From NCBI GenBank assembly GCA_964023275.1, contig OZ029913.1, positions 52,220,144 to 52,284,143 of the forward strand: 64,000 bases of DNA, given 5' to 3'. The position numbers and the translations under genes were made by a program. This DNA comes from Norana najaformis. Lineage: Eukaryota; Annelida; Clitellata; Crassiclitellata; Hormogastridae. The notes below the pieces were generated by a model, which was not told the origin of the DNA, ran no database searches, and saw nothing but the letters and a program-made list of their open reading frames with translations. This document shows, in pieces, positions 18,690 through 47,882 of the stretch. Each line of letters starts with the position of its first letter. The first letter of the stretch is position 1.

Positions 18690-21600
18690 GTCTGATGCAT
18701 TTATAAAAACGTAATTGCGGGTCGCAGGTGGCGGATAGCGAAAAGCCATCAGTACTGATGGTTAGCTGCGAAATAAGCAGGCTTCTGCCTGACGAATAAG
18801 CAGTCCCGGACCAAACAGCGGTGGCACTCAACAGGGCCAGGGTGGGATGTGAAGTGACACGCACACCCCTAAAAAATGCCCTGTAAAGCCTGAAGACGAG
18901 GCCATGTCGAGCGAATGGAGACCGCTTAAAGTCTTCGGTCAATAAGTACACCGGGCAGCAGCGGTGTGGAGGCGCGACTTTGGCGGAAGAATTCCACGTG
19001 GATCAACGGCAAAGATTTGCACAACAGTATCTACTGAACTGCGGTCAGAAGAGGATTTGGGGCCCACTGACTATACAATCCCAGCGCGTACCATGAAAAG
19101 ACGACGTCAGTTTAATGTTATGGGTGGTGGTTTTGATCCCTCCAGGAAATTGACCACCCTATGTGCTACTGGAGGAGGGAAGAGCAAGGCTCTGAGAGAC
19201 CTGGCAAGTGATGATGATGTCGGCCTAAACCCTGAGTCAGAAGGGCTGGCGTCGGACGATTGCCGGGGAAAACGGAGCCGAGTGAACCTACGTTACAACA
19301 TGCGGGTGGCAACATGGAACGTGCAGACGCTGTTCCAGGCCGGGAAACTGGCAAATGTCACTGGAGAGATGAGAAGGTGTGGGGTGGCGATAATGGGCAT
19401 CGCGGAGGCCAGATGGACAGGCAGGGGCTGTTTTACCAGCGAGTCGGATGAAGTGGTGGTGTACTCAGGTGGAGACACCCATGATAAAGGAGTGGCCATC
19501 ATTCTTTCTAAGGAGGTGAAGAGCGGACTGATGGAATACCGTACAATATCAAGCAGGATTGTATATGTCAGGATGAGAGCTTCACCGGTTAATATCTCCA
19601 TATATCAAATATATGCACCGACAATGGCGACGGAAGAAAATATAAGAGAGAGCTTCTATCTACAGCTGGAGGAAGAAATGGGTAAGGCACCTAGGAAAGA
19701 CATGATGGTAGTAATGGGTGATTACAATGCCAAGGTGGGAGATGAATTGACAGAGGAAGTAGGAGGAGGTTACGGACTGGGCGCTATGAATGACAATGGT
19801 GAAAGGGTTATAAACTTCTGCTTGGAGAACAAACTAGTCATCACAAACACTATGTTTAAGCACCACAAGCGTAGGAGATGCACTTGGAACTCGCCTGATG
19901 GACACACGAAGAACCAGATAGACTACATTATGATCTCAAAAAGATTCCGGAAATGCGTCACAAATTCCAGAGCCTATCCGGGAGCAGATTGTGGGTCGGA
20001 TCACAACATGGTGGGAGCGGATCTGAGACTGAGATTCAGGAGACATGGAAGAGCAGAGCATAGAACTGTATATGACCTGGACAAGCTCCAGGACAGCGTT
20101 GTCAGCGAACAGTACACAGTAGAAGTGAGCAACAGATTTGCGGCACTACTGGAATGTGTGGAAGAGAAGACTCCGGATGTACTGTGGGAAGACATCAAAA
20201 CAGAGACAAAGGCAACAGCAGATAGATGGCTGGGGAAAAAGAAGAAGAGTAAAAACAAACCCTGGATGACACTGGAAACTTTGAAACTGATTGAAGTAAG
20301 AAGAAATTTGAAATCAGAAAAGAATAGAACCAAAGAGGGCCAGAAAGCATACAAAGAGGCAAAAAGTGAAGTGCAGAGATACTGCAGGAGGGACAAAAAA
20401 GAGTGGATGGAACAACAATGCGGAGATATTGAAGACAACATGAAAAGAGGGAACACAAAGAGAGCTTACGAGGTTCTAAAAAAGCTCCGTCAAGATATGA
20501 CGGCTAAGCAAAGGAACATCGAGGATGAAAAAGGAAGGTTGCTGTCGGATATGGAGAGCATAAAAAGAAGATGGAAACAATACACAGAAGAGCTGTATAA
20601 GGATGAAAACCGGGAGGAAGGGGCGGAAGATAGCGCATTGGGAGATGATGGATATAGGGCGACTCCAATGGTGATACTGATGGATGAGGTCAGGGATGCA
20701 ATCAAGAGGCTCCCAAGAGGTAAGGCTACGGGAGTGGATGAACTGCCGGCAGAGCTATGGAAAGTGGACAGCGATGAGGTAGTGGCAGTCTTCTGTAGAC
20801 TGTGTAACAGGATATTGGAAAGTGAGGAATGGCCAGAGGACTGGGTTAAGTCAATTTTCATCACAATACCGAAAGTCAAAGGTACAACGAAATGCGAGGA
20901 ACATAGGACTATTGCATTAATCAGTCATGCAAGCAAAATAATGCTCAGAGTCTTGCTTTGCAGAATGCAGAAGACGGCGGATGAAGAGTTAGCGGATGTA
21001 CAGATGGGTTTCAGGAAAGGCGTGGGTACGAGGGATCAAATACTCAACCTGAGGATTATCATCGAAAAGGCAAGAGAGCATCAAACACCTTTATACATAG
21101 CTTTCATAGATTACAAAAAGGCTTTTGACTCAGTTAAACACGGGAAACTATGGAAAGTGCTAAAAGAAATGGGTATGAACAACCAAGTGGTGGAAACACT
21201 TAGAATCCTCTACGACAATCAACAGGCGGCTGTCCGCATAGAGAAGGAAATTACAGATTGGTTCAGAATTGGAAAAGGGGTGAGACAGGGATGCTTGATA
21301 TCGCCAATGTCGTTTAACAGCTACTCGGAGGAGGTGATGAGAGAATCTGCCGACGAACTTACGTGGATTGGTGTAACAATAAGCGGGAGAACGATAAATA
21401 ACTTGCGATATGCGGATGACATTGTGCTGATTGCAACGTCAAGAGAAAAGCTCCAACAGCTGCTGGACAGAGTCAACGAGGCGTCAAATAACTATGGACT
21501 GGAAATCAATACCAAGAAAACAAAGGTGATGGTAGTGGACAGAGAACATGAAAGAATTACGATCATGTGTAATGGTGCAGTCCTGGAACAGGTGGAGTCT

Positions 21601-22205
21601 TTCAGATACCTGGGTGCTGTGATAGAGCAATCTGGAGATGGGGGCAGAGAAATAAGAGCCAGATTGGGGATGGCGCGCACGATCATGAGCTCGCTTGCAG
21701 TGATCTGGAGGGACAGGGCTCTGGGAACCTGGCTGAAACTAAGGCTCGTAAGCGCACTGGTGTGGTCGGTGGCGCTGTATGGGTGTGAGACCTGGACACT
21801 GCGGAAGGAAGACAGAAGAAGAATAACAGCGTTTGAAATGACGACGTACAGGAGGATGCTGAGGGTCAGTTGGAGTGAGCACAGGACAAATGAGTCGATT
21901 CTGGAAGAGCTGAAGCCGGAGCGACGCCTGCTGGAGGTGGTGATGAGCAGAAAGCTGAGCTACTTTGGACATATGATTAGAGCAGACAATCTACCGGCCT
22001 TCATATGCCAGGGATATATGGAGGGAAAAAGACCTCGGGGAAGACCGAGAAGGCGCTGGAGGGATGACGTGACGGAGTGGATGGGGATGTCGATGGCGGA
22101 CTGCACAAGGAAGGCAAGAGACAGAACTGAGTGGAGAAGACTGACGTCGTTGGCCATGGTCTCCGATCCGCAGCAATGAGGATGGACAAGACAAGACAAG
22201 ACAAT
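18690..22205 (+). mobile_element. Near-complete RTE-clade non-LTR retrotransposon
   Basis: About 3.5 kb, comprising a short 5' region, one long intact ORF, almost no 3'UTR and a short (gacaa)n tail at about 22183-22202. This layout is typical of RTE elements. It lies in opposite orientation to CRLF3, just upstream of its ATG and within the likely 5'UTR intron. The 5' limit is approximate, and no clear target-site duplication was identified by eye. Confidence 0.85.
19093..22179 (+). CDS. RTE endonuclease/reverse transcriptase polyprotein
   Basis: An uninterrupted 1028-aa ORF from the first ATG (MKRRRQFNVMGGG); the open frame extends upstream without ATG to 18964. An AP endonuclease occupies about residues 70-316, with VATWNVQTL, IMGIAEARWTG, VVMGDYNAKVG, KNQIDYIMI and GSDHNMV. 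The reverse transcriptase core has FIDYKKAFDSV near 670, KGVRQGCLISP near 728 and the catalytic LRYADDIVLI near 772. The C-terminal RTE tail has SYFGHMIRAD, GKRPRGRPRRRWRDDV and ARDRTEWRRL. The protein nicks target DNA and primes reverse transcription of its own RNA. No stop or frameshift is present, so the copy may be young and possibly active. Confidence 0.93.
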   Translation: MKRRRQFNVMGGGFDPSRKLTTLCATGGGKSKALRDLASDDDVGLNPESEGLASDDCRGKRSRVNLRYNMRVATWNVQTLFQAGKLANVTGEMRRCGVAIMGIAEARWTGRGCFTSESDEVVVYSGGDTHDKGVAIILSKEVKSGLMEYRTISSRIVYVRMRASPVNISIYQIYAPTMATEENIRESFYLQLEEEMGKAPRKDMMVVMGDYNAKVGDELTEEVGGGYGLGAMNDNGERVINFCLENKLVITNTMFKHHKRRRCTWNSPDGHTKNQIDYIMISKRFRKCVTNSRAYPGADCGSDHNMVGADLRLRFRRHGRAEHRTVYDLDKLQDSVVSEQYTVEVSNRFAALLECVEEKTPDVLWEDIKTETKATADRWLGKKKKSKNKPWMTLETLKLIEVRRNLKSEKNRTKEGQKAYKEAKSEVQRYCRRDKKEWMEQQCGDIEDNMKRGNTKRAYEVLKKLRQDMTAKQRNIEDEKGRLLSDMESIKRRWKQYTEELYKDENREEGAEDSALGDDGYRATPMVILMDEVRDAIKRLPRGKATGVDELPAELWKVDSDEVVAVFCRLCNRILESEEWPEDWVKSIFITIPKVKGTTKCEEHRTIALISHASKIMLRVLLCRMQKTADEELADVQMGFRKGVGTRDQILNLRIIIEKAREHQTPLYIAFIDYKKAFDSVKHGKLWKVLKEMGMNNQVVETLRILYDNQQAAVRIEKEITDWFRIGKGVRQGCLISPMSFNSYSEEVMRESADELTWIGVTISGRTINNLRYADDIVLIATSREKLQQLLDRVNEASNNYGLEINTKKTKVMVVDREHERITIMCNGAVLEQVESFRYLGAVIEQSGDGGREIRARLGMARTIMSSLAVIWRDRALGTWLKLRLVSALVWSVALYGCETWTLRKEDRRRITAFEMTTYRRMLRVSWSEHRTNESILEELKPERRLLEVVMSRKLSYFGHMIRADNLPAFICQGYMEGKRPRGRPRRRWRDDVTEWMGMSMADCTRKARDRTEWRRLTSLAMVSDPQQ

Positions 22206-27890: not shown

Positions 27891-27896
27891 TTTATT
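27891..27896 (-). terminator. Polyadenylation signal, Arg-rich gene copy 1
   Basis: AATAAA on the minus strand (tttatt here), 172-177 bases past the copy 1 stop. It is embedded in a block conserved in all four units (cgaacaatagacttcatcg next to it). Confidence 0.75.
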
Positions 27897-28067
27897 TGAT
27901 CGAACAATAGACTTCATCGTTCTAAATTAAACCGCAGACGAAAGTTCATAGAAGACCGATCGCTTGGATCTTTTTCCTTTTCTTCTTCAAGTCAGCCGAA
28001 TGATGGACGGACGGTAGGAGAGAGGCAGGCCCCGTGTCTAGAGGGTGATCGTTACTCGCCGTCGTCG

Positions 28068-28646
28068 TCAGCGGCGGCGTCCATGGCTTGGGCGGCGTCC
28101 GTGGCTTCGGCGGCGGCGGCGCCGGCGACTCCCTCGTCCGCGGCCGCGTCTCCTTCTTCGTCGTGAAGGACTCGAACCCTCTCTATCGTCGTGGGCCGAT
28201 GATGTAGACACTCCCCGCCGAGCGCTGCGAGACCTCGCCCTTCGTCTCGCCTCTTCGAAGTCGTCTTCCAGTTCCTCTTCCTGCTCCACACAACAACAAC
28301 CAAAAAACCTTCCCTAAGAGTATGTCCCAGGATGACAACGTCCACCTAGACCTAATAATTTTCCGGCCTAGTGTCTGAGTCAAGGCCCAGTGTCTAAGCC
28401 GAATTTATATAGGGTTAATAATTCCAAGATAAATCTAAACTAATTCAATCAAATTAACCAAAGTTTGATTAATCTTATTAATAATAATAAAAGCTAAACT
28501 ATTTTAATCTAGCCTAATTCTGGGATCACCCTGTTCTCTTGTAAGTTTGACCTTATATTGGCCAAAGAAAGCTATCCGAAGACCGCTCTCTTCAGTCAAT
28601 ACAAGTGCAAGGTCAAACTTACCAGTTCGAGATCTTCGTCTTCCAT
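28068..28646 (-). CDS. Arg-rich protamine-like precursor, copy 1 (divergent)
   Basis: Two-exon model: exon 1 28623-28646 (MEDEDLEL, then donor gtaagt), exon 2 28068-28313 (acceptor actcttag). Both are phase 0, giving 89 aa. The N-terminal third is acidic with a Cys triplet (GRFFGCCCVEQEEELEDD), followed by an Arg/Ser stretch (RRRARSRSARR), a polar linker, and an Arg-rich tail that ends RRRSHGRRPSHGRRR. Compared with copies 2-4, this tail has Gly and Pro substitutions and lacks the final Arg run and Tyr. Arg codons are mixed (cga, aga, agg, cgc, cgg), which argues for selection on the protein rather than a simple repeat. The resemblance is to sperm nuclear basic proteins, which replace histones and compact DNA. 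The function is inferred from composition only. Confidence 0.65.
28541..28622. repeat. Intronic inverted repeat containing the splice donor, copy 1
   Basis: Arms gtaagtttgacctt (28541-28554) and aaggtcaaacttac (28609-28622) are perfect reverse complements separated by 54 bases. The right arm contains the exon 1 donor of the minus-strand gene. Confidence 0.85.
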
Positions 28647-28760
28647 GTTCTTCTTCTTCGGATCTTCTTGAAGCTTGGATGGGTTGAGGAAACTCAGTTG
28701 ACTCGGCCGCATTTACGCATTTCCGGTCCAAGAGAAACCGCCTCTAGCCAATCAGAACAC
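28647..28760 (-). promoter_or_regulatory. Promoter region of Arg-rich copy 1 with CCAAT box
   Basis: A CCAAT box (agccaatcag, 28746-28755) lies about 100 bp upstream of the ATG. A gtaaat element between them might serve as a weak TATA-like site. The CCAAT box is conserved in copies 2 and 4. No transcription start is known. Confidence 0.45.
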
Positions 28761-28799
28761 AGCTGCGGTCACAATGAGTTGCCATGACAACCAGATCTC

Positions 28800-30100
28800 A
28801 GGCCTGCATTTTGGCCCTTTTCCCAATTGTTAACATTATAATTATCATCTGAATTGAGAAAACTTACCTGAAAGACGGACCGTGAGATATTGTTTCGGGA
28901 GAGGTTTATGCTCCAGACGCTGACGACTTAGAGTAGAATATAAGAACAGAATAAGCGTAGAATATCAGAGAACTCGTTTATAAAAACGTTACTCAAAATC
29001 ATGGATTTTCATCGAAAAAATAAATAGGCCTACAGAGGAAAATTCGACGTTGCGAATAGAAATTATCCCAGCAGTTTCTCGGATGATGCTGAAGTCAAAA
29101 GATCTGCGTAGCTTAAAACTATCCGCAGAAACATAGACCAACATTTGGTCATTGAAATAAACTCGTCAATCCAGAATGTTTCCCCAAAGTTTAACATTTC
29201 TGGAGAGAAAACTGCTTTGTTTACACTTCGATTGCCATCTCACCTTATCTATGTTAATGGGCCATCTGTTTAAGCGGATGGGTCCGTAATTAAAAGAGAG
29301 GGTTTCTTTAGCAGAGGCGATCTATTTAAGTGGAACCTGGGCCCTTTCTGGATTTGCCGTTTGTATCCCGGCAAATTGTACACGATCTGTGAAAATGGGA
29401 TGAGCTAATGGGCCAGAGACAATTGGGCCCATATTCGGAAACGCTGGGGCGATTAGTACAATTTCACTGCAGGCGCACCATCATCGACCCAAATTTCATA
29501 TTTTTAGTATTTTACTCTGGATGAAATTCATAAAATGCTACAAAAATTTGTTCTGTTTGGCTGTAAAAATGCTTTCAGCTTCGTCCAAATCTATAAGTAT
29601 GGTCATTTCTGTGCATCAGCGTCCCCCATACTCCAGCATAGACCTATCTCGATGTAAATAGATACTATGTTGGCAACGTTTCCTTTTTCTTTAAGCCAGC
29701 TCAGTTACTCCTTTTTCCCGCCCTTACTGTAAGTCCTGTTCTTTATCTATTTGGAAATAAACATTAAGAAAGGACGTTAAGACCAGGGTTTAAGGAAACT
29801 AAGAATTCTGATTTAAGCACAGATGACTCGTAGTCTATGCCTAATTATGTATAAGTCAAGTTATTCTGGCCTGTCTAAAATTCTAGAAAGTCTGGGGGCT
29901 GAAACTTCTTGAACCCCTAAGTCTAAAGTTCTGGAAAATCTAGTTGTCTAGACTTCTGGAACGCCTGTCTAAAATTTTGGGAAGGCAAGAAAAGCCTGTA
30001 ACATGACCGAACGCTTAAGCATAAAATGTAGGCCTATAGGCAAGCCTAGGAAGCCTAAACTTAAGGAAAGCCTAGACTAAAAACAACAAGACAAGTTATT
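28800..30100. other. Spacer between Arg-rich units 1 and 2
   Basis: No gene is seen. The right end (about 29860-30100) is a degenerate run of cctaaa/agcctagg phrases that recurs in front of each unit (27690-27860, 32560-32690, 34860-35050). It is part of the duplicated block. Confidence 0.6.
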
Positions 30101-30112
30101 TCTTTTTCAACT

Positions 30113-30118
30113 TTTATT
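30113..30118 (-). terminator. Polyadenylation signal, Arg-rich gene copy 2
   Basis: AATAAA on the minus strand, about 136-141 bases past the stop at 30254, in the conserved 3' block. Confidence 0.75.
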
Positions 30119-30253
30119 GACCGAACAATAGACTTCATCGATCTAAATTAAACCGCAGACGAAAGTTCTTAGAAGACCGGTCGCTTGGATTTGTTTCCTC
30201 TTCTTCAGTCGGCCGAATGATGGACGGACGGACGACGGACGGAGGTTCGATGT

Positions 30254-30767
30254 CTAGTATCGTCGTCGTCGTCGGCGACGGCGTCGGTGGCTTCGGCGGC
30301 GGCGGCTGCGTCGTCGGCGGCGGCTTCCTCGACGGCGGCGTCTCCGTCTTCGTCGCGAAGGACCCGATCCTTCATCATCGTCGTCGGTCGCTGGTGCGGA
30401 CACTCCCGGCCGAGCGCTGCGAGACCTCGCCCTTCGCCTCACCTCCTCGATGTCATCTTCCAGTTCTTCTTCCTGCTCCACACAACAACAACCCAAAAAC
30501 CTCCCCTAAGAGAAAGCCTTATGTAACAACGTCTACCTATACCTTCTCGCAACCGATTGTTTAAGTTCATCAATAATCCTTGGACAAATATAGAATAAAA
30601 TGATCTTAATTATAATCTAAGCAGTCTAAACTCAATTATTCTACTCTATTTAATATTGATCAAAGCCAAGTAATCAGTTCTAAGATTTCCCTATTCTCTT
30701 GTAAGTTTGACCTTTTTCTAGCCGTAGTGTAGGTCAAACTTACCAGTTCGAGATCTCGGTCTTCCAT
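30254..30767 (-). CDS. Arg-rich protamine-like precursor, copy 2
   Basis: Exon 1 30744-30767 encodes MEDRDLEL before a gtaagt donor. Exon 2 30254-30505 follows acceptor tctcttag. Both are phase 0, giving 91 aa. The sequence runs from an acidic leader with three Cys (GRFLGCCCVEQ, EEELEDDIEEV), through RRRARSRSARPGVS and an acidic DDDDEGSG linker, to a tail of Arg runs broken by Ser, Gly and His and ending in Tyr. A later acceptor (gtggagcag) would also keep frame and would remove the Cys segment. No ATG exists in exon 2, so exon 1 must supply it. Exon 2 is nearly identical to copies 3 and 4, suggesting recent duplication or gene conversion. The likely role is chromatin compaction in sperm; other basic nucleic-acid-binding roles remain possible. 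Confidence 0.7.
30701..30743. repeat. Intronic inverted repeat containing the splice donor, copy 2
   Basis: Arms gtaagtttgacct (30701-30713) and aggtcaaacttac (30731-30743) with a 17-base loop. The right arm holds the exon 1 donor. Confidence 0.85.
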
Positions 30768-30880
30768 CTTCTTGTTGTTCTTCTGGTCTTCTTGAAGCTT
30801 GGATGGAACCGACGATATCACTCTTGACTTGACCGTATTTACGCATATTCGGTCAAGGAGAAACCGCCAGTAGCCAATCA
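30768..30880 (-). promoter_or_regulatory. Promoter region of Arg-rich copy 2 with CCAAT box
   Basis: CCAAT box (tagccaatca, 30871-30880) about 110 bp upstream of the ATG. A gcgtaaata TATA-like element lies nearer the ATG. Confidence 0.45.
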
Positions 30881-31689
30881 AAATGTGGCTCCGGACACAA
30901 TGGGTTTCCATGACAACCAAATCGAAATCTCAGTTTTTGCGTCTGTTTTGAGTAATAATGGCCTTTACTCAAAAACACGAGTTTTTTCACTGTAAGCAAA
31001 AGCAGTGTCATGTTATGTTTCGTCAATCATAGTAAAAACCATTTCACAAATTTTCTTAGTTTTTTTAAAAATGAACCAAGCCACCCTCTAGTAAAGCTGC
31101 TCTTAAGAGTTGTCGGAAGAAGACTTTATCTACTTGTACTGACATAGGAAGAAAGGCCTTCCAAAATGTATTCTGAAATCAGAATAGCCCAAAAACTCAT
31201 CCATAGTATTTTGTTCGTTCAGAATCAGTGGCAGTTTACACCGAAGATTTTAAGGAGGTAAGCTTGTTAGTTTTGTGTGCAGTAACGTTGAACCACTTCG
31301 AAGATGGGGTCCCGACATTTGATGATCGAGGACACGAGTCCATCATGGGTTCTAGGCTCGAAACCCGCTCTGAGGTCCACAGCCCGGGGGGATCAGAGGC
31401 ATAGCTTAAAACATTTCCACAGCAAAAACCGTTTTTGCATTTATTGTTTGTACGGTTTCGTGGATTTCAGAGGCAGTGATGTCAGTGTCATATGTGAATA
31501 AATTGAATGTATGCTTGAATTCTGTACAATAGTCTTATACTCGGTTTTAAAAATAGGAAAGTATGACAATTCTAATTAATGCACTGGGAAGATTAAATTT
31601 TGTATTCCAATCGAAATCACGTCGTTGTGAATTTAATTCCCATTTGTACTTTTCCTCAAATGTTGCTATACTTAATCTGTTGTGTACAT

Positions 31690-31990
31690 ACTTAGTTGAA
31701 TTTGTGCCAAGGGCAGAATTTAACAGTTTTATAATTTGGAGGTGGTTTAAACAGGGAGTCAAATTTTGAGAAAATTCCAACATGATAAATTATATAAATA
31801 TGATTCAACAGGAGTGACAGAATGAAGTGATTTCGAATCAGAATGAGTTATCAGGACATCCAAGGTGTGGTCTTTATTACGTGTAGGAAAGGTAACGAGT
31901 TGTTTCATGTCAAACCCTTCCAACACACACAAAGGCGGACAACAGTTATGTGCTTTTTGCAGGTAGGTCAACAGAACTGGGATTTTTGTC
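31690..31990 (-). mobile_element. LINE endonuclease-domain fragment
   Basis: Minus-strand translation contains LEGFDMKQLVTFPTRNKD, then HTLDVLITHSDS. This matches the usual non-LTR endonuclease pattern in which FDLxQxVxFPT is followed by HTLDLxIT. It is a short, isolated piece within the Arg-rich cluster. Confidence 0.7.
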
Positions 31991-32229
31991 GCTGACGTCT
32001 TCCTTTGACAATGCATTAATCTTTCTTGACCTCTCGTTTCAATTGCAGTCTGCTTTCAGTAACCGTCGGCTGAAGCTTAACAGTAATCTTACAGTCGGAC
32101 AAGATATCCTACTTCACCTTATTCTTAAGAAGATCAATCAGACCTATTTGTAAAATCTTGACGCAGTTGCAGTTTCACCTTTCAACTCTCCGTTGAATGT
32201 AAGAAGTGGTAAATGTAAAATGTACACGT

Positions 32230-32310
32230 TTTGATATAGCGACTGTATACATATATATTGGCCCTGCTCTTTTTTAAATGAATTAATCGGGTGGATCTTT
32301 GCCATGTGTG
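32230..32310 (-). repeat. Dispersed repeat family R150, degraded copy
   Basis: Tail part only: gatatagcgactgtat, ggccctgctctttttt, aatgaattaatcgggtgga. The order matches the 6000-6145 copy. Confidence 0.5.
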
Positions 32311-32711
32311 AGAAGTCTTTCTGCAAGTTGATATAGGGTTTAATGAAACGAGAATTCTGATTTCGTCATCGGTCAAGTTTATTCGTGGCATGGGCTTAAT
32401 TGGCCCATAAGTCAAATCCAGAAACGCTTCGGCTAAATTTATAGAGTGTCCTAGGATGAAATTCTGAAAATTCTGGGAAGATATGGGCAGGGCAAGGAAG
32501 GGAGATCAGCGATGGAAGAATAGGAGTTGAGTGGCATCAAGAAGTGTCTATAGTCAAGAGTCTATACTCCTGGAACGTTTTTTGTCTAAACTTTAGAAAA
32601 GCTTTAGTAATAAAATTCCCAAAACCGAAGCCTAAAATTCTTGAACACCCAAGCCTAATAGTTAGGAATCTAAGCCTAAAAATCACAAGGCAGGTTATTT
32701 CTTTTTCAAAT

Positions 32712-32717
32712 TTTATT
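32712..32717 (-). terminator. Polyadenylation signal, Arg-rich gene copy 3
   Basis: AATAAA on the minus strand, about 142-147 bases past the stop at 32859, in the conserved 3' block. Confidence 0.75.
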
Positions 32718-32858
32718 GATCGAACAATAGACTTCATCGATCTAAATTAAACCGCTGACGAAAGTTCGTAGTAGACCGGTCGCTGGTATCTTTTTCCTCT
32801 TCTTAATCTTCTTCAGTCGGTCGAATGATGGACGGACCGAGGGAGGGAGGTTCGATGT

Positions 32859-33371
32859 CTAGTATCGTCGTCGTCGTCGGCGACGGCGTCGGTGGCTTCG
32901 GCGGCGGCGGCTTCGTCGTCGTCGGCGGCTTCCTCGACGGCGGCGTCTCCGTCTTCGTCGCGAAGGACCCGATCCTTCATCATCGTCGTCGGTCGCTGGT
33001 GCGGACACTCCCGGCCGAGCGCTGCGAGACCTCGCCCTTCGTCTCACCTCCTCGATGTCGTCTTCCAGTTCTTCTTCCTGCTCCACACAACAACAACCCA
33101 AAAACCTCCCCTAAGAGAAAGCCTTAGAACAGCCTTCAATATAATAATAACCTATCATCTAGGAATAATGATGCTTAGGTAAATCTAATGCTATCTAAAT
33201 TCGCTCGAATGAACCTAAGCAAATGAATCAAATTATTATTAATTAAATCTAATTAACGTATTCTAATTCTACGCTTTCCCTAATCTCTTGTAAGTTTGAC
33301 CTACTAGCCAAAGAAAGCTAGTATAAGTGCAAGGTCAAACTTACCAGTTGGTGATCTTCCTGGTCTTCCAT
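32859..33371 (-). CDS. Arg-rich protamine-like precursor, copy 3
   Basis: Exon 1 33345-33371 encodes MEDQEDHQL before a gtaagt donor. Exon 2 32859-33110 follows acceptor tctcttag. Both are phase 0, giving 92 aa. The exon 2 product is the same as in copy 2: Cys-containing acidic leader, RRRARSRSARPGVS, DDDDEGSG linker, then Arg tail ending in Tyr. Exon 1 differs between copies in its middle residues but keeps MED at the start and the final Leu. The upstream CCAAT box is damaged in this copy (acctatcag instead of gccaatcag), so expression may be reduced. The introns of the four copies (234-309 bp) have diverged far more than exon 2. Confidence 0.7.
33290..33344. repeat. Intronic inverted repeat containing the splice donor, copy 3
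   Basis: Arms gtaagtttgacct (33290-33302) and aggtcaaacttac (33332-33344). An inner pair (actagc and gctagt) extends the hairpin. The right arm holds the donor. Confidence 0.85.
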
Positions 33372-33539
33372 CTTCTTGTTGTTCTCCTGATCTTCTTGAA
33401 GATTCGACAGAACTGAAGCAACGCGGTCTTATTTACGTATTTCAGACCGAGAAAAACCTCCAACTACCTATCAGAACTCAGGTCCAGGCACAATAAGTTG
33501 CTATGACAACAAAGTTTACATCTTACGGTTAGATTTCTG

Positions 33540-35050
33540 CCTCTTCCGAAATGTTAAAATATGTCACCTGAATCCAACAGAAAGGCTTCGAAGACGTTAA
33601 GAAATATCGAGCGGAAGGTTATGAGCGAGATGTTGGTAACGCAGACTAGAACACATACAAGACCAAGTGAACTCATTCTGACGATTTTTTAAAAATTAGG
33701 CTTTCACTATATATAAGCAGAACAGTTGTTGTAGTTCGTTTGTCGCCGCATGTATCATATCGATTTGTCATTTCGCGGTTTTTCTCAAATTTGTACTCTT
33801 GACAGAGGCAAATATATGCCACGCTGCCTTAGAAAACTGCTCTTGAGAGTTGTAGAAAGAAGTAACCTTCCGGTGCTCGTAAAGAAAAGCCTTCTGTATT
33901 CTGAAGATATGTGGCTATATATGCAAATCAGTTCATCTTAGACACGGGATATTCGTAAAATCAGCAAATTCCCTGGTTTCTAACCGACTTGACCACTGTA
34001 ACTTACTTAGTAGTATCGCTAAGGCAGATCTATACAAACTAAAAATGGTTCAAATTATTTTTGCAAGAGCCCTAATAACTGGCTGCCCATCGAACAAAGA
34101 TTCCAGTTTAAAATCAATCTTATATTTTAAAAGACTACATTTAAATCAGCCGACCTATCTGTTCTCCCTGCTCACTTCTCAAACCAACAAATAAAACAAC
34201 ACTTGATCAACAAACGACTCTAGTTGTACGTAGCTATAGCTCGCACCAGTTCGCTGTATCTCAGTAATTGAGATATTGACATAATTATAGTAACCCAAAA
34301 GTTATAGGCACCCAGCGTAATGTAAGGGCTTTCTGACATCGTCCTGGAGATCCTTAAGGAATACTTTGCCTTTAAATATGAGCAACTGTGCACTCTTTAT
34401 GCAGGCTTAATACAGAAACGCGGAGTTTACTTAACCCACAGACGGACAAATGTGCTTTTTGCAGTTAGCCTAACGAGATTTGGGAATTGTCGGTTACGTT
34501 CGCCATTAACAGCGCTTTACTCTGTATCGTCCTTTGAGTTCAAATGCTGCCTGCTTTAAACAAATGTCGTCTGCTTTCATTCGTCTGTTTTCTGTTATTT
34601 CTGCTACCAAATGCTCAATTTCATACCTACTTTCAGTAATCGCCGGCTGAAGCTTAACAGCCAGGCAATATCTCGTTCTAAATTTTATTCTTAATAGTAT
34701 TTAGGCCTATTTGCAAAAATCTGTATGCACTTGCAGTTTCGTCTTTAAACTGTCCGTTGAACCTAAGAAGCGGTCTTGTTTATCTGAGCAAATCGGTCAG
34801 AAAGTTGAAGCCAGGCTTTAAAGGTTTAAGGAAACTAAGAATTCTTGTAGTCTGGGCCTAGTTATATTTTCAAGTACAATTCTGTTAAGCCTGGACCGAA
34901 ACTGTAACAACTAAATATAAAATTCCCGAATCCTAAGTCCTAAATTCGAAAAGCTAAAGCCTTCTTGAACTTCTTTAATGCTTAAGCCTAAAAAATCTAT
35001 AGGAAAGCCCAGGAAGCCTAGAATTCAGGAAAGCTCAGCCTATAAAGAAC
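33540..35050. other. Spacer between Arg-rich units 3 and 4
   Basis: No gene is seen. It contains the related blocks at 33815-33910 and 34440-34775, a LINE fragment at 33985-34235, and the cctaaa-type degenerate run before unit 4. Confidence 0.6.
33985..34235 (+). mobile_element. CR1/L2-like LINE fragment
   Basis: Frame-broken translation shows LDHCNLLSSIAKADLYKLK, then NWLPIEQRFQFKINL, then LHLNQPTYL. These are decayed forms of the common LINE motifs LDYCNSLL, LHWLPI and PxYL. A deletion removes the segment between the first two. Confidence 0.7.
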
Positions 35051-35075
35051 AAGACAAATAAATTCTTTTTCAACT

Positions 35076-35081
35076 TTTATT
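35076..35081 (-). terminator. Polyadenylation signal, Arg-rich gene copy 4
   Basis: AATAAA on the minus strand, about 149-154 bases past the stop at 35230. The 3'UTR of this copy also carries an expanded (ggac)n run at 35181-35219. Confidence 0.75.
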
Positions 35082-35229
35082 GATCGAACAATAGACTTCA
35101 TCGATCTAAATTAAACCGCAGACGAAAGTTCTTAGAAGACCGGTCGCTTGGATTTGTTTCCTCTTCTTCAGTCGGCCGAATGATGGACGGACGGACGGAC
35201 GGACGGACGGACGGACGGAGGTTCGGTGT

Positions 35230-35790
35230 CTAGTATCGTCGTCGTCGTCGTCGGCGACGGCGTCGGTGGCTTCGGCGGCGGCGGCTTCGTCGTCGTCGGC
35301 GGCTTCCTCGACGGCGGCGTCTCCGTCTTCGTCGCGAAGGACCCGATCCTTCATCATCGTCGTCGGTCGCTGGTGCGGACACTCCCGGCCGAGCGCTGCG
35401 AGACCTCGCCCTTCGCCTCACCTCCTCGATGTCGTCTTCCAGTTCTTCTTCCTGCTCCACACAACAACAACCCAAAAACCTCCCCTAAGAGAATGTCACA
35501 GGATAGCAGCCAGACAATATCTCGTTCTAGACACCTACACCTAATAATCTTCCAGCTCAATGTCTAAACCTATCGATAGACAGGCTTACATATTGAGCTG
35601 GAAGATCAATAATCTTCAAATTAATCTAATTACCCTAATCTTAGTTTATCTTATCTAATCCTACGGTTACCCTGTTCTCTTGTAAGTTTGACTTTATGCT
35701 GGCCAAAGAAAGCTATCCGAAGACAGCTCTCTTCGGCCAGCACAAGTGCAAGGTCAAACTTACCAGTTGGAGGTCTTTGTGGTCTTCCAT
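35230..35790 (-). CDS. Arg-rich protamine-like precursor, copy 4
   Basis: Exon 1 35764-35790 encodes MEDHKDLQL before a gtaagt donor. Exon 2 35230-35484 follows acceptor attctcttag. Both are phase 0, giving 93 aa. The layout is acidic Cys-containing leader (residues 10-32), RRRARSRSAR, an acidic DDDDEGSG linker, then a 35-residue tail with 28 Arg in runs of 9, 5, 4 and 10, ending in Tyr. It has one more Arg than copies 2 and 3. Acidic leaders ahead of Arg-rich, Tyr-containing tails are known from protamine precursors of cephalopods, where the leader is removed in spermiogenesis. Homology is not shown here. This is the first gene of the visible cluster in transcription direction. Confidence 0.7.
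35682..35763. repeat. Intronic inverted repeat containing the splice donor, copy 4
   Basis: Arms gtaagtttgac (35682-35692) and gtcaaacttac (35753-35763). The stem is extended by an inner pair (tgctggcc and ggccagca), making this the longest hairpin of the four. The right arm holds the donor. Confidence 0.85.
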
Positions 35791-35903
35791 GTTGTTGTTC
35801 CTCTGACCTTCTTGAGGTTTGGGTAGTTCAACCTGAACAAACCTCTCGACCAAGCCGCTTTTTGCCAATTTTCGGTCCAAGAAAAACCTCTACCAGCCAA
35901 TCA
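35791..35903 (-). promoter_or_regulatory. Promoter region of Arg-rich copy 4 with CCAAT box
   Basis: CCAAT box (cagccaatcag) at about 35893-35903, about 105 bp upstream of the ATG, at the same position as in copies 1 and 2. Confidence 0.45.
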
Positions 35904-36539
35904 GAACACAGTTTCCAACACAATACGTTGCCATAGGAGAAACAGATCAAATTCTTGGGATACCATTTTTACGTCTTCCTAAATGTTACACAAAGTCATC
36001 TGAATTCGAAAGACGTCCACAAAGACGTTAAAAAAGTTAAAGCAATATATTACTGAACCATTTTCAACTTATACTACAACTCAAGACTCGGTTAACTCGG
36101 TTAAAAAAGGCTTTCATTCAAAATAAGCGTTTTTCGGTTGGATTTTAATTGTAATCTTATTTTAGGCAATTCCACAGTTTTTCTTAAACGGAGAAAAAGT
36201 CAAGCCATTTACTCTTAGAAAAACTGTTTTTAGGAGTATTTGAAAGAAGAAAGAGTTGATTATACTGTTCTGACAGAGGAAGAAAACCCTTCCAAAATCA
36301 TAAGCCTACGTTCTGAAATCAAAGTAGCCCAAAAACCTATCCAGAGTGTTTTCTTCTCAATCAATTTAATAGACCAATGGAAACGTTTTTCAATAAGTAT
36401 TGCCATGACAACTTAAAAAATAATTGCTTAATAATAAACAGTATATCTTGACGCAGTTGGGCCTATTTTAAAATAATTTCGTCATAATACAATAAGATAC
36501 ATTATAAAATACATTATGAAAAAGATCATACAAGGCACA

Positions 36540-41999: not shown

Positions 42000-42140
42000 G
42001 CATCAATTGATGGCGCTGAACAATTGCGAGTAAAGGACTTGCTTAAGGTCCCTACACAGTAAACGTCTCGGAGGAGGCTCGAACCCGTACTCTCCGCATT
42101 AGAAGCCGAGCGCTCTATCCAATATGCTACCATGCCCCGT
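42000..42140 (-). repeat. tRNA-derived SINE, family C
   Basis: On the minus strand: ggggcatggtagcatattgg (A-box side), gcgctcggcttctaatgcgg, gtacgggttcgagcctcc (B box), then gggaccttaagcaagtcc. The tRNA-like fold is imperfect and a SINE body follows, so it is not called a tRNA gene. Confidence 0.7.
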
Positions 42141-43160: not shown

Positions 43161-46100
43161 ATGCTGTCTGATCCAACTGAACCGGAATCAGTGAACGGCG
43201 CCACTCCCCAACTGCCCTCGGATACAAGGACCACCGATCCAGCCATCGAAGACGAGTCCACCGACACCGTCTACCGGCTGCCAGGCCGTCAGAGGGACCA
43301 TCTTCGTTCTTCGGGCCACCTGTCACAGCCTCCTCCTCCTCCGACGGGTCCATTGCTACTCGCACCGTCGCCGTTAATTCGGTCGGCGTCCGCCCCTCCG
43401 GACTACGTGCCTTCGCTACCCGCCTCCCGCCAACACCGAGCAACGCGGGGTCCAAGGCCCGTGCCATCAGACGATGACTTCCGGGCCTTTCAACCTATGC
43501 CACCGGAAGTGGTTGAGACTGGTCGCCGCGAGAAGGAGTGCTCGGCCTGTTGTCTGCGCTGCATCGTTGTCATGACGACGCTTCGCTGGATGTTTGTGTC
43601 GGCTGCTCTGCTGGGCGCCGGCTGCGTCGTCACGGGGATCGTGTTTGGGGTGATGTCGTCGACCCTCACCATGGACAAATTCTTCGTACTGGCCTTCATC
43701 TTCATCGGTAAGCTCTCGCCGATTAGCTAATTTATATAGCGCTATTTTGGGTAGGTAGATGTGCGCGTTAGTCTAGTGGTTAGCCTACTGAACTGCCAAC
43801 CGAGAGGCTGGGCTTCATCTTCCCCGGAAGGGCAGAAAGATGTTTCGAAATTTATGCTTCACTAGCGCCACCTACTGAACTCGTGTATAAAATGAATATT
43901 CTGAGTGTTCACTGACAGTGGGAAGACCAGGCGGCGAGGGAAAGGACTGATCATTGGTACTCAAATGCCGAGGCCAAGAAAATTAAATCGTTATACTGGG
44001 AAGAGAGAGAAAAGAAGGAAGGAAGGAAGAATTGAAGGAAAGAAGGAAGGAAGAAATTAAAGAAAGAAAGAAGGAAGGAAGGAAGAAATGAAGGAGAGAA
44101 GGAAGGAAGGAAGAAATGAAGGAAAGAAGGACGAAAGGAAGGAAGGAAAGAAGGAATTAACGAATGAAGAAAAGAAGGAAGAAAAGAAGGAAGAAAAGAA
44201 GGAAGAAAAGAAGGAAGAAAAGAAGGAAGAAAAGAAGGAAGAAAAGAAGGAAGAAAAGAAGGAAGAAAAGAAGGAAGAAAGGAAGGAAAGAAGGAAGAAA
44301 AGACGGAAGGAGGGAAGAAAAGAAAGAAGGACGAAAAGAAAGAAGGAAGGCATTTAGATAGGCTATGAAATTTGAGTCTGTGAAATTGGTATAACGAACG
44401 AACCGAACAATCAACGTTCCCTACAGAGCTATTGTGCAATGCAGGCCTGAATTGTCGGCAGCTCTTCATAGAGTTGGACTGATTGAAATTCAGCACACAA
44501 AGTAAAAAAACTCCGAATCACGCTCTCTCTATTTGTCAAAAAACACCAGAAAGGAAGACATGAAGCGACACGTTGGTTAATCATAACCAGTCGTTTTCAT
44601 GAAAGCACATGTCTGGCACTGTCAGCCATTCAGTCAAGGTGCCATCTCATGTGGCCTAAGGTAATGCGGTGTCCTGCAGCCAGAACACTGTATTCTGAGA
44701 AAGAGTATGCGTGTATGTGTGAGAGAGACAGACAGACAGAGAGACAGAAAGACAAAGAGAGAAAGAGAGAGTAAGAGAGAGAGAGAGAGAGTAAGAGAGA
44801 GAGAGAGAGAGAGAGTAAGAGAGAGAGAGAGAGAGAAAGACAGACAGACAGAATTAGCAGTTTGGGTTGATGGAATGACCGTTGAAATGACAGACGGACC
44901 ATTTGTGGTTGAAAGCAATTTGGTTGTGAAGACTTATGGACATGATCCAATCAACGTAAAGGGTTGGTTCCCCCTTCTCACTACCAGTCGAACCCTGGGC
45001 TTAGCAACAGATCATCTGACTCATTGACTAACCGACTGATTGACGGATGAACTGAACGAGCTAACGAGAGGCTTTTAAAAGGCGCTATATAAATATTCTG
45101 CTTCAAGCGAGCATACAAACTAAGAGACTAACGAGATGGACGAACGGAGTAAAATACAAAGATACGATGAAAGATCGTAGAAAGTGCATAATCGTATTCT
45201 GCCTACATTGGCCTACTTATGCCGAGGGCTGTAGTGCTTACGTCCGTAGGTTAACACCGGCTGTGGTTCGTCGTTCGTTTAGGTAAATATCCTTTGACCG
45301 GCTCCATTTTGCTGATCGCCATGACGTCAACTGCTTTAGGCTTCACGCATGACTGAACGCAGTCAACACTTTAAAAAGACACACAGTGTGAATTGCTTGC
45401 TATGAAATCGTGGCAAAAAAACAACCCGACTCTACATGTGTGCGAATTCTGTCAGCGATGACAAGTATAGGCAACCAGACACAGTCAACCTCAACCTGAC
45501 ACATTCAACCTCAACCAGACACATTCAACCTCAACCAGACACATTCAACCTCAACCAGACACATTCAACCTCAACCAGACACATTCAACCTCAACCAGAC
45601 ACATTCAACCTCAACCAGACACATTCAACTTCAACCTGACACATTCAACCTCAACCTGACACATTCAACCTCAAACTGACACATTCAACCTCAACCAGAC
45701 ACATTCAACCTCAACCAGACACATTCAACTTCAACCAGACACATTCAACCTCAAACAGACACATTCAACTTCAACCAGACACATTCAACCTCAACCAGAC
45801 ACATTCAACTTCAACCTGACACATTCAACCTCAACCTGACACATTCAACCTCAACCTGACACATTCAACCTCAACCAGACACATTCAACCTCAACCAGAC
45901 ACATTCAACTTCAACCAGACACATTCAACCTCAACCAGACACATTCAACCTCAACCAGATACATTCAACCTCAACCAGACACATTCAACTTCAACCTGAC
46001 ACATTCAACCTCAACCTGACACATTCAGCCTCAACCTGACACATTCAACCTCAACCTGACACATTCAACCTCAACCAGACACATTCAACTTCAACCAGAC

Positions 46101-47882
46101 ACATTCAACCTCAACCAGACACATTCAACCTCAACCAGACACATTCAACCTCAACCAGACACATTCAACTTCAACCTGACACATTCAACCTCAACCAGAC
46201 ACATTCAACTTCAACCAGACACATTCAACCTCAACCAGACACATTCAACCTCAACCTGACACATTCAACCTCAACCTGACACATTCAACCTCAACCTGAC
46301 ACATTCAACCTCAACCAGACACATTCAACCTCAACCAGACACATTCAACTTCAACCAGACACATTCAACCTCAACCAGACACATTCAACCTCAACCAGAC
46401 ACATTCAACCTCAACCAGACACATTCAACTTCAACCTGACACATTCAACCTCAACCAGACACATTCAACTTCAACCAGACACATTCAACCTCAACCAGAC
46501 ACATTCAACCTCAACCAGACACATTCAACCTCAACCTGACACATTCAACCTCAACCTGACACATTCAACCTCAACCAGACACATTCAACTTCAACCAGAC
46601 ACATTCAACTTCAACCAGACACATTCAACCTCAACCAGACACATTCAACTTCAACCAGACATTCAACCTCAACCAGACACATTCAACCTCAACCAGACAC
46701 ATTCAACCTCAACCAGACACATTCAACTTCAACCAGACACATTCAACTTCAACCAGACACATTCAACCTCAACCAGACACATTCAACCTCAACCAGACAC
46801 ATTCAACTTCAACCTGACACATTCAACCTCAACCTGACACATTCAACCTCATCATGATTCGATTCAAAGGCCGATCCAGTGGAATAAAATCCAACCATGG
46901 CACCCATTTGAGCTTAGGATGGCACGCCATTGAGTTAAAAATACAAATGTTTCTTCTAAGACTGCTAAACGAAAGTGTGCGAACGCGGAATGAAGGGACA
47001 TTAAGTCAAAAAATGAAGAGCGGAGACAGGGAGAAGTTGTGCAAATGGGGGAAATCAACCAAAATGGCAGAAGACCAGTAAAGGTCATTAGAAATTTGTT
47101 GCAAATGAAATCTTATAATCAGTTGCTAAACGGAGGAGGACTAAACAAAAGGTCGTCAGCTTTTTGTCCACTCAACTAAACTTGCAAGACCTCAACTATG
47201 GTTAAATTGCCCCCTCTTTCGAAACTCATGGATCCGCTGGAGCAACCTCTGACTGGTCACTGATCGTTGCCTTTCGATGATGCAACCTAAGCAGACTCGG
47301 CTGACGGGTGCTTTGGGAATATAACATGCGCTAAATATGAGGTTGAACCCCCAATACTTTAAGTTACCCACGACCCAACGAGAATCGATCTAACCTAAAT
47401 ATGGAAACTCCTATTTAGTGCCCTGATCATAACGCACAACGCGTCGATCAATCGATGGTCGCCTTCTAAGTAGAAACACATTCCAAGAACATCATCCAAC
47501 AAGTGAAACAAGACATTCTGAGGTGGGTGAGATCTTATTCTGCGAATGTCTCTCGTATATGAGAGTGAACAGATTTGTAAATAGCTTGAATATGTACTAA
47601 GGCGCACATACTGGAGTCCAGTATGCTCCAAAATTATACGACGACCTAGATATTATACGAGTAGCAACAGATCCATCCAGGTGAATGGATGTAAGCCAGT
47701 CGAACTTGTACTACTGTTGCGAGCTGGATTGAGCCCAAAAGAAGAAATTCAGTTTGAAATGGGTTCAAAAGAAGCTTCACTGAATGCCATTCAAGCCCGT
47801 ACATCTTCAAAAACCGTACATACGTACGTAAGTATGTATGTATGCAGGCATGTATGCATGTATGTATGTATAGATGCATGCG

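Follow-up and report, generated by a model that had tools for sequence, protein, structure and literature searches.

A stretch of 64,000 nucleotides from the annelid Norana najaformis (contig OZ029913.1, positions 52,220,144 to 52,284,143), called the window here, carries four tandem genes (units U1 to U4) on its minus strand at 27.9-35.9 kb. An earlier reading made from the letters of this DNA (the sequence-only reading) had described four such units, each with an ATG-bearing mini-exon, a GTAAGT donor, an in-frame exon 2 and AATAAA, and all of these elements were found. Each unit encodes a charge-segregated protein of 78-82 amino acids, consisting of an acidic leader, a RARSRS core, an acidic linker and an arginine tail. 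We consider, with a probability of about 0.64, that these genes encode precursors of lineage-specific sperm nuclear basic proteins (SNBPs) whose splicing would be gated by a hairpin over the 5' splice site, a reading drawn from sequence. The hairpin is the most unexpected feature of the genes and had been missed before. The features in window coordinates are as follows.

35927..35940, minus strand: U1 X-box-like site TCTCCTATGGCAAC, one mismatch to RYYNYYATRRNRAC
35764..35790, minus strand: U1 exon 1 coding part, MEDHKDLQL; ATG context AACAACAACATGG
35682..35763, minus strand: U1 predicted intron 5' hairpin, from intron +1, -52.0 kcal/mol
35452..35484, minus strand: U1 33-nt T/G-rich tract from CTTAG to the second acceptor; formerly the "Cys triplet", here most likely intronic
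35230..35451, minus strand: U1 exon 2 coding part including stop (EEELEDD...RRRY*)
35076..35081, minus strand: U1 AATAAA
33497..33510, minus strand: U2 X-box-like site GTTGTCATAGCAAC
33345..33371, minus strand: U2 exon 1 coding part, MEDQEDHQL
33290..33344, minus strand: U2 predicted intron 5' hairpin, -25.5 kcal/mol
33078..33110, minus strand: U2 33-nt tract preceding the second acceptor
32859..33077, minus strand: U2 exon 2 coding part including stop
32712..32717, minus strand: U2 AATAAA
30904..30917, minus strand: U3 X-box-like site GTTGTCATGGAAAC
30744..30767, minus strand: U3 exon 1 coding part, MEDRDLEL
30701..30743, minus strand: U3 predicted intron 5' hairpin, -17.2 kcal/mol
30473..30505, minus strand: U3 33-nt tract preceding the second acceptor
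30254..30472, minus strand: U3 exon 2 coding part including stop
30113..30118, minus strand: U3 AATAAA
28778..28791, minus strand: U4 X-box-like site GTTGTCATGGCAAC
28623..28646, minus strand: U4 exon 1 coding part, MEDEDLEL
28541..28622, minus strand: U4 predicted intron 5' hairpin, -38.4 kcal/mol
28281..28313, minus strand: U4 33-nt tract preceding the second acceptor
28068..28280, minus strand: U4 exon 2 coding part including stop
27891..27896, minus strand: U4 AATAAA

Every unit has the same order of elements: upstream block, mini-exon, donor, intron, exon 2, conserved 3' untranslated region (3'UTR) and AATAAA. The coding part of the mini-exon is 24 or 27 nt long, ends in phase 0 with the codon CTG, and begins at an ATG with A at -3 and G at +4 in all four units; the introns have 267-342 nt. 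Donor G+1 lies at 35763 (U1), 33344 (U2), 30743 (U3) and 28622 (U4), with distances of 2419, 2601 and 2121 nt. The unit spacing is 2.1-2.6 kb, where 2.2-2.6 kb had been given earlier. An acidic leader and an arginine tail with mixed codons had also been described for exon 2, and both were confirmed; the arginine codons of U1 exon 2 are CGA 16, CGC 9, AGG 3, CGG 2, AGA 2 and CGT 2. The protein of U1 reads MEDHKDLQL-EEELEDDIEEVRRRARSRSARPGVSAPATDDDDEGSGPS-arginine tail. Antisense arginine-rich open reading frames (ORFs; 30258-30509 on the plus strand and others alike) were rejected as a by-product of the CGN runs.

The first 13 bases of the intron, GTAAGTTTGACCT, include the whole 5' splice site, and they recur in inverted form 31-70 nt downstream in the window units, with one mismatch in U1. 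When the window was searched for the donor block TGGTAAGTTTGACC with at most two mismatches, eight sites were obtained, all in the units: four donors and four inverted copies (0.57 sites expected; 0 of 100 shuffles reached eight). The basal arms are nearly constant among U1-U4, against an identity of 0.55-0.62 in the remainder of the intron (random mean 0.50, highest 0.56). Over a longer stretch, comparison with dinucleotide shuffles gave z = -8.0, -2.9, -4.2 and -5.6 for U1 to U4.

The family is spread over the genome. The genome of the species (17 contigs, 608 Mb) was searched in six frames with the U1 protein, which gave 12 places, eight of them in addition to the four units. The 3'UTR as query gave 13 places, three of them new: the full gene L022 (on C5) and two fragments, L020 and L021, of which the examined stretch contains just the 3'UTR of the family with its poly(A) signal, at 91% and 88% identity to U1. 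In all, six contigs carry at least 13 two-exon loci (four on C1, one each on C3, C4 and C5, four on C8, two on C13), to which two 3'UTR remnants are added, these counts being lower bounds; the nine two-exon paralogues outside the window were absent from the sequence-only reading. Eleven genes, all but L015 and L016, have a match to the 3'UTR block, which in L022 is partial (77%). A mini-stem GATCGA/TCGATC in this block lay within the lowest-energy fold of only some of the 11 copies, so we claim conservation of 3'UTR sequence and no structure.

L015 (on C4) is the most diverged copy, and its protein as query matched itself alone at the threshold. L016 (on C13) has lost the donor and has no AATAAA within 640 nt past the stop, and therefore is probably decayed. 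In a tree of 12 loci, U4 was joined with L012 (on C8) with support 100/99, and L010, L011 and L014 were grouped with 95/92; the remaining forks were weak or open. L022 stands outside this tree, the exon-2 selection counts, the covariation analysis, the pairing-probability set and the set of ten hairpin energies. L010 and L011 (C8, 33.76 Mb and 33.48 Mb) have identical coding sequences in opposite orientation about 276 kb apart, which is a recent duplication or conversion. Such a genome-wide set of copies is material for dating and comparing duplications of these genes.

Across the 13 loci, a complementary arm was present 31-83 nt downstream of the donor in 11 copies. The arm of intron +1 to +13 has 13 of 13 pairs in nine copies and 12 in U1 and L012, while among 2600 mononucleotide shuffles none reached 13 pairs and 28 reached 12. 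Ten hairpins fold at -17 to -54 kcal/mol, none of 200 mononucleotide shuffles being as low for each, and the L022 hairpin folds at -39.7 kcal/mol. Of 12 loci, nine have a predicted mean pairing probability of 0.99 or more for donor +1 to +6 (0.81 in L012, 0.63 in L015 and 0.34 in L016), against means of 0.51-0.57 in shuffled introns (0.39 for L016). Shuffles matching the pairing were 0 or 1 of 40 in nine loci and 0-2 of 40 in the ten hairpin copies; they were 16 of 40 in L015 and 21 of 40 in L016.

When the nine distinct hairpins were aligned (L011 was omitted as identical to L010), 95.1% of the cells were paired against 29.7-46.0% after sliding, a control which tends to favour a structure derived from its own sequences. 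In two of the pairs both partners have changed (AU/GC and CG/UA). The covariation score of 0.079 was above shuffles (0 of 500 as high), as were the cells paired (0 of 500) and the cells changed on both sides (2 of 500). The start of U1 small nuclear RNA (snRNA) is ACUUACCUG. The 3' arm of the hairpin includes ACUUAC, equal to this start, and on paper the arm would be a built-in competitor of U1 snRNA. A candidate pairing of AAGAGAA, 3' of the hairpin, with UCUCUUAG near the first AG was rejected; it was predicted in unit U1 only, with probability 0 in U2, U3 and U4.

The start of exon 2 most likely differs from the earlier proposal. In the window copies there are two candidate AG acceptors, 33 nt apart and both in frame, and exon 2 had been started at the upstream one (...CTCTTAG|GGGAGG), which adds GRFLGCCCVEQ. 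This start breaks the frame in L009, L013, L022 and L015. The interval between the two AGs is 32 nt in the first three, where the upstream AG gives frameshifted products; L015 carries TTCTCAG at the matching place, 31 nt upstream, out of frame and with a 23-residue product without arginine tail. Therefore the T/G-rich stretch for Gly-Arg-Phe-Leu-Gly-Cys-Cys-Cys is most likely intronic, and exon 2 would begin 33 nt further downstream, at the second acceptor, which gives the reading of leader, core and arginine tail in 13 of 13 copies. The Cys triplet had been taken as the mark of a new subtype; since the paralogue frames disagree, we abandon it. It is very unlikely that CTTAG serves as an alternative acceptor for a GRFLGCCCVEQ isoform in copies with the frame kept: a short pyrimidine run precedes CTTAG and nine of the 13 copies keep the arginine frame (L016 with an interval of 30 nt, the other eight with 33 nt), but the frame is lost in the four paralogues named above.

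The family proteins have 78-85 amino acids with 0-4 lysines. The arginine tail holds 50-82% arginine over the 13 copies, with 61-82% in 10 of them, 79-82% in seven and 82% in U1-U3; the whole precursors hold 28-42%, with no cysteine in nine copies and one in four. An N-terminal part precedes the tail in all 13 copies and is strongly acidic in most. The linker DDDDEGSG, put forward as another subtype mark, is present in U1-U3 and is not constant among the paralogues.

The reading frame of the family is under purifying selection. The synonymous/nonsynonymous comparison of exon 2 that the sequence-only reading had suggested gave a pooled pN/pS (ratio of non-synonymous to synonymous proportions) of 0.45 for the arginine frame (10 copies, 45 pairs). 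All gap stretches in exon 2 are multiples of three (77 of 77, counted row by row in 12 copies). In exon 2, U1-U3 are distinguished by a single 3-nt gap and four substitutions, each of them at a third codon position, and the tails of U1 and L009 differ by 14 synonymous and 0 non-synonymous changes. Between U1 and U4 the substitutions by codon position of the minus-strand arginine frame are 19/9/22, which by our own estimate is suggestive and alone not significant. Among 15 pairs, the ratio of non-synonymous to synonymous rates (dN/dS) was 0.11-0.46 in 11, 0.54 for U4-L012, 1.03 for L010-L014 and undefined in two (synonymous change nil or saturated); the codon alignment of the tail shifts near length changes, which inflates the U1-U2 and U1-U3 counts over the direct count.

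Among U1-U3 the identity is 97-98% in exon 2 and 98-100% in the 33-nt tract with the adjoining 11 bases, and 56-62% in the intron middle and 51-56% in the far flanks, with a random mean of 0.50. Both purifying selection and a conversion confined to exon 2 and the 3'UTR fit this homogenisation. The same pattern bears on a possible but clearly less probable explanation, in which the family is the same but the hairpin has no role in splicing and is a palindrome kept by DNA-level mechanisms (template switching, concerted evolution) or a source of double-stranded or small RNA. Exon 2 of U1-U3 looks homogenised against the intron middle, which may point to active conversion; U2, U3 and L012 have a far shorter apical part, a frequent loss in palindromes, and the 24-bp apical stem of U1 resembles a small-RNA precursor. 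However, across copies the apical stem varies, and what 11 of 13 have retained is the basal stem alone, which covers the donor and is each time in register with intron +1. This exact register suggests a brake at the level of splicing.

A block with X-box-like (RFX) and inverted CCAAT sites lies upstream of most copies, which the sequence-only reading had not noticed. The X-box consensus is RYYNYYATRRNRAC. In its strict form it gave 11 matches in the window versus 1.9 expected, and 0 of 100 shuffles had as many. With both strands counted, these are seven places: U2, U3, U4 and four elsewhere. When spacers of 2-4 were allowed, seven of the 13 copies had no mismatch, four had one and two had two. 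Eleven of the 13 copies have the inverted CCAAT (ATTGGC), between -101 and -116. One of the four places outside the units is an X-box-like site at 36399-36412, about 600 nt upstream of the U1 ATG and near flank sequence common with the upstream part of U3; it is perhaps a remnant of another unit.

We favour SNBP precursors because of composition, size, upstream sites and copy number, and in particular because of the 82% arginine tail of U1-U3, the lack of a hydrophobic signal segment, the selection on the frame and the X-box-like sites. Protamines have 60-80% arginine (PMC3073880, in the part available), a content reached by the tail in 10 of 13 copies. The protamine-like reading of the locus made earlier is thus kept; the Cys-triplet subtype is not, and the locus holds only some members of a family found across the genome. 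An unlikely alternative is that the products serve in other cells, as arginine-rich proteins of the nucleus or as RNA-binding ones, for example SR-like proteins; the most conserved block, RARSRS-like and so an SR-type motif, would fit this, as would the lower arginine content of L014, L015 and L016. The tails with 79-82% arginine in seven copies speak against such proteins, as do the X-box-like sites and a multi-copy family that suits a bulk structural protein. Secreted antimicrobial peptides with an acidic pro-part would share the acidic pro-region and the cationic tail, but the proteins contain no hydrophobic segment (the top 9-residue Kyte-Doolittle mean is 1.16 among the 13 proteins, and 11 of 13 are below 0.5), and we regard this origin as hardly credible.

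Several observations weigh against SNBP precursors with a gated donor. The hairpin is absent from L015 (9 of 13 pairs, the commonest shuffle value) and from L016 (5 of 13), hence the family as such does not depend on it; L012 (L012:1494-1551, plus strand) has a GC donor (GCAAGT) in place of GTAAGT, with the +2 pair mismatched. The longer stretch of U2 was equalled by 2 of 200 dinucleotide shuffles. Of the five covariation measures, two did not rise above shuffles: the number of doubly changed pairs was reached by 358 of 500, and that of further pair types by 493 of 500. Palindrome upkeep by DNA template switching could also keep the stem. Upstream, four places of the window outside the units also match the X-box consensus, the site is degenerate with looser spacing in U1, L009, L012 and L022 (one mismatch) and in L015 and L016 (two), and U2 and L016 no longer have the inverted CCAAT. 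The tails of L014, L015 and L016 have merely 50-56% arginine, and the L010/L014 ratio given above means that not all copies are constrained. Finally, Pfam gave no protamine match, residues 1-50 had no match at E<=1 in the protein database (nr and UniRef entries; 6 candidates), and the family profile reached a best E of 5.9 there, one match among 7963 candidates scored.

The sequence-only reading had asked for a search against known protamines, and no homologue was found in the Pfam and protein-database searches made. In Pfam no protamine model was obtained at E<=1 for 3 sequences or for 9 of the 13 family proteins, with weak matches to PH_35, DUF3042 and Spt5_N. The 9 proteins had no winged-helix match in Pfam and the lysine count is 0-4, so they do not fall among H1-derived protamine-like (PL) proteins. 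NCBIfam, a prokaryote library, gave 0 families for 9 proteins, and Rfam gave nothing at the gathering threshold. In the PDB, the best match of U1 had E 0.011 and was neither histone nor protamine, and that of L015 had E 0.14, with an H2B chain at 1.3. SNBPs evolve fast and are poorly found by sequence search. To our knowledge, protamines of different phyla share no homology, so missing homologues do not exclude the function. The same difficulty in finding SNBPs is described for bees (PMC12216123, in the part available).

A weak resemblance, noted post hoc, links the conserved core (RARSRSARAGVSSP in L015) with the tail of histone H2A, AKTRSSRAGLQFP; most copies show it in one and the same register. 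By Smith-Waterman, 0 to 4 of 500 shuffles scored as high in all 7 copies tested (of 13), and the forward score exceeded the reversed one in 12 of 13 (L014 excepted), with just 35 vs 33 in L010 and L011. We set this similarity aside as post hoc and of low complexity; against H4, too, few shuffles scored as high for U1 (1 of 500), U4 (4 of 500) and L012 (0 of 500).

The data support the predicted gene structure, the selection on the frame and the conserved complementarity; beyond these, we infer expression in sperm and an effect of the hairpin on splicing. In male germ cells, RFX-type factors would activate the genes by way of the X-box. The nascent transcript would fold, and the hairpin would hide the donor from the U1 small nuclear ribonucleoprotein (snRNP), so that splicing may be slow or may require a helicase or an RNA-binding protein. 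As the leader would be joined to the arginine tail in the spliced mRNA alone, the protein would be produced after the hairpin is released. The polycation may be kept soluble and off RNA by its acidic leader and linker, until RSRS is phosphorylated and the leader removed, which would free the arginine tail to condense sperm DNA. Removal of a leader followed by DNA condensation would resemble other protamine precursors, among which N-terminal cleavage is common (PMC12216123, in the part available).

We also consider, tentatively and as rather doubtful, a family-wide RNA switch over sperm-packing proteins, in which a U1-snRNA-like arm in each intron locks the donor, with a core derived from the H2A tail as a bolder addition. 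The delay of SNBP synthesis until late spermiogenesis is mostly explained by delayed translation. If such a switch were true, a set of DNA-condensing genes could be transcribed early and freed by one unwinding or RNA-binding factor; if the addition were true, a protamine lineage would have been born from H2A and not from H1.

Elsewhere in the window, 18946-22176 on the plus strand is a long ORF of long interspersed nuclear element type with endonuclease and reverse transcriptase (Pfam RVT_1, 1.6e-38), whose highest-identity named match among 120 matches listed is from Branchiostoma belcheri (61% over 76%). A cephalochordate host was considered on account of this match; the GFP family gave 0 hits, as it also did in the control genomes. 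At 45472-46851 there is a 69-copy array of the 20-bp unit CAACCAGACACATTCAACCT with 95% matches. A tRNA-Pyl prediction at 42064 was rejected as a false positive of a bacterial-code scan.

The vertebrate protamines P1 and P2 are arginine-rich, have small two-exon genes and are represented by Pfam families. Our genes are alike in arginine content and two-exon structure, but have no Pfam match, have 0 or 1 cysteine and carry an acidic leader. The invertebrate P-type protamines of squid Loligo, honeybee (P2) and Tribolium are likewise short precursors with arginine clusters, whose N-terminal part is cleaved (PMC12216123, in the part available); no homology to them was found, and the present precursors, of presumed sperm origin, differ in the strongly acidic leader and linker and in the predicted 5' splice site hairpin. 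In Drosophila, SNBP genes have been amplified and vary in number between genomes; the proteins differ from those here, and hairpins are unmentioned in the covered portion of that source (PMC9917458). In mouse, RFX2 drives spermiogenesis, and the promoters of spermiogenesis genes carry its motif, a 14-bp inverted repeat, close to the transcription start, an arrangement shared by the X-box-like sites here; mouse protamines are made after the stage of Rfx2 arrest, while here the site stands on a protamine-like gene (PMC4498915, in the part available). A literature search, mostly without subscription journals, found no case of a hairpin in protamine introns. A similar case is the tau exon 10 hairpin at the exon-intron junction, which hides the 5' splice site from the U1 snRNP with about seven stable pairs (PMC6720520, in the part available). 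Our family resembles it in the predicted pairing of the donor, which comprises 12-13 pairs from intron +1 onwards and recurs in 11 of its 13 genes.

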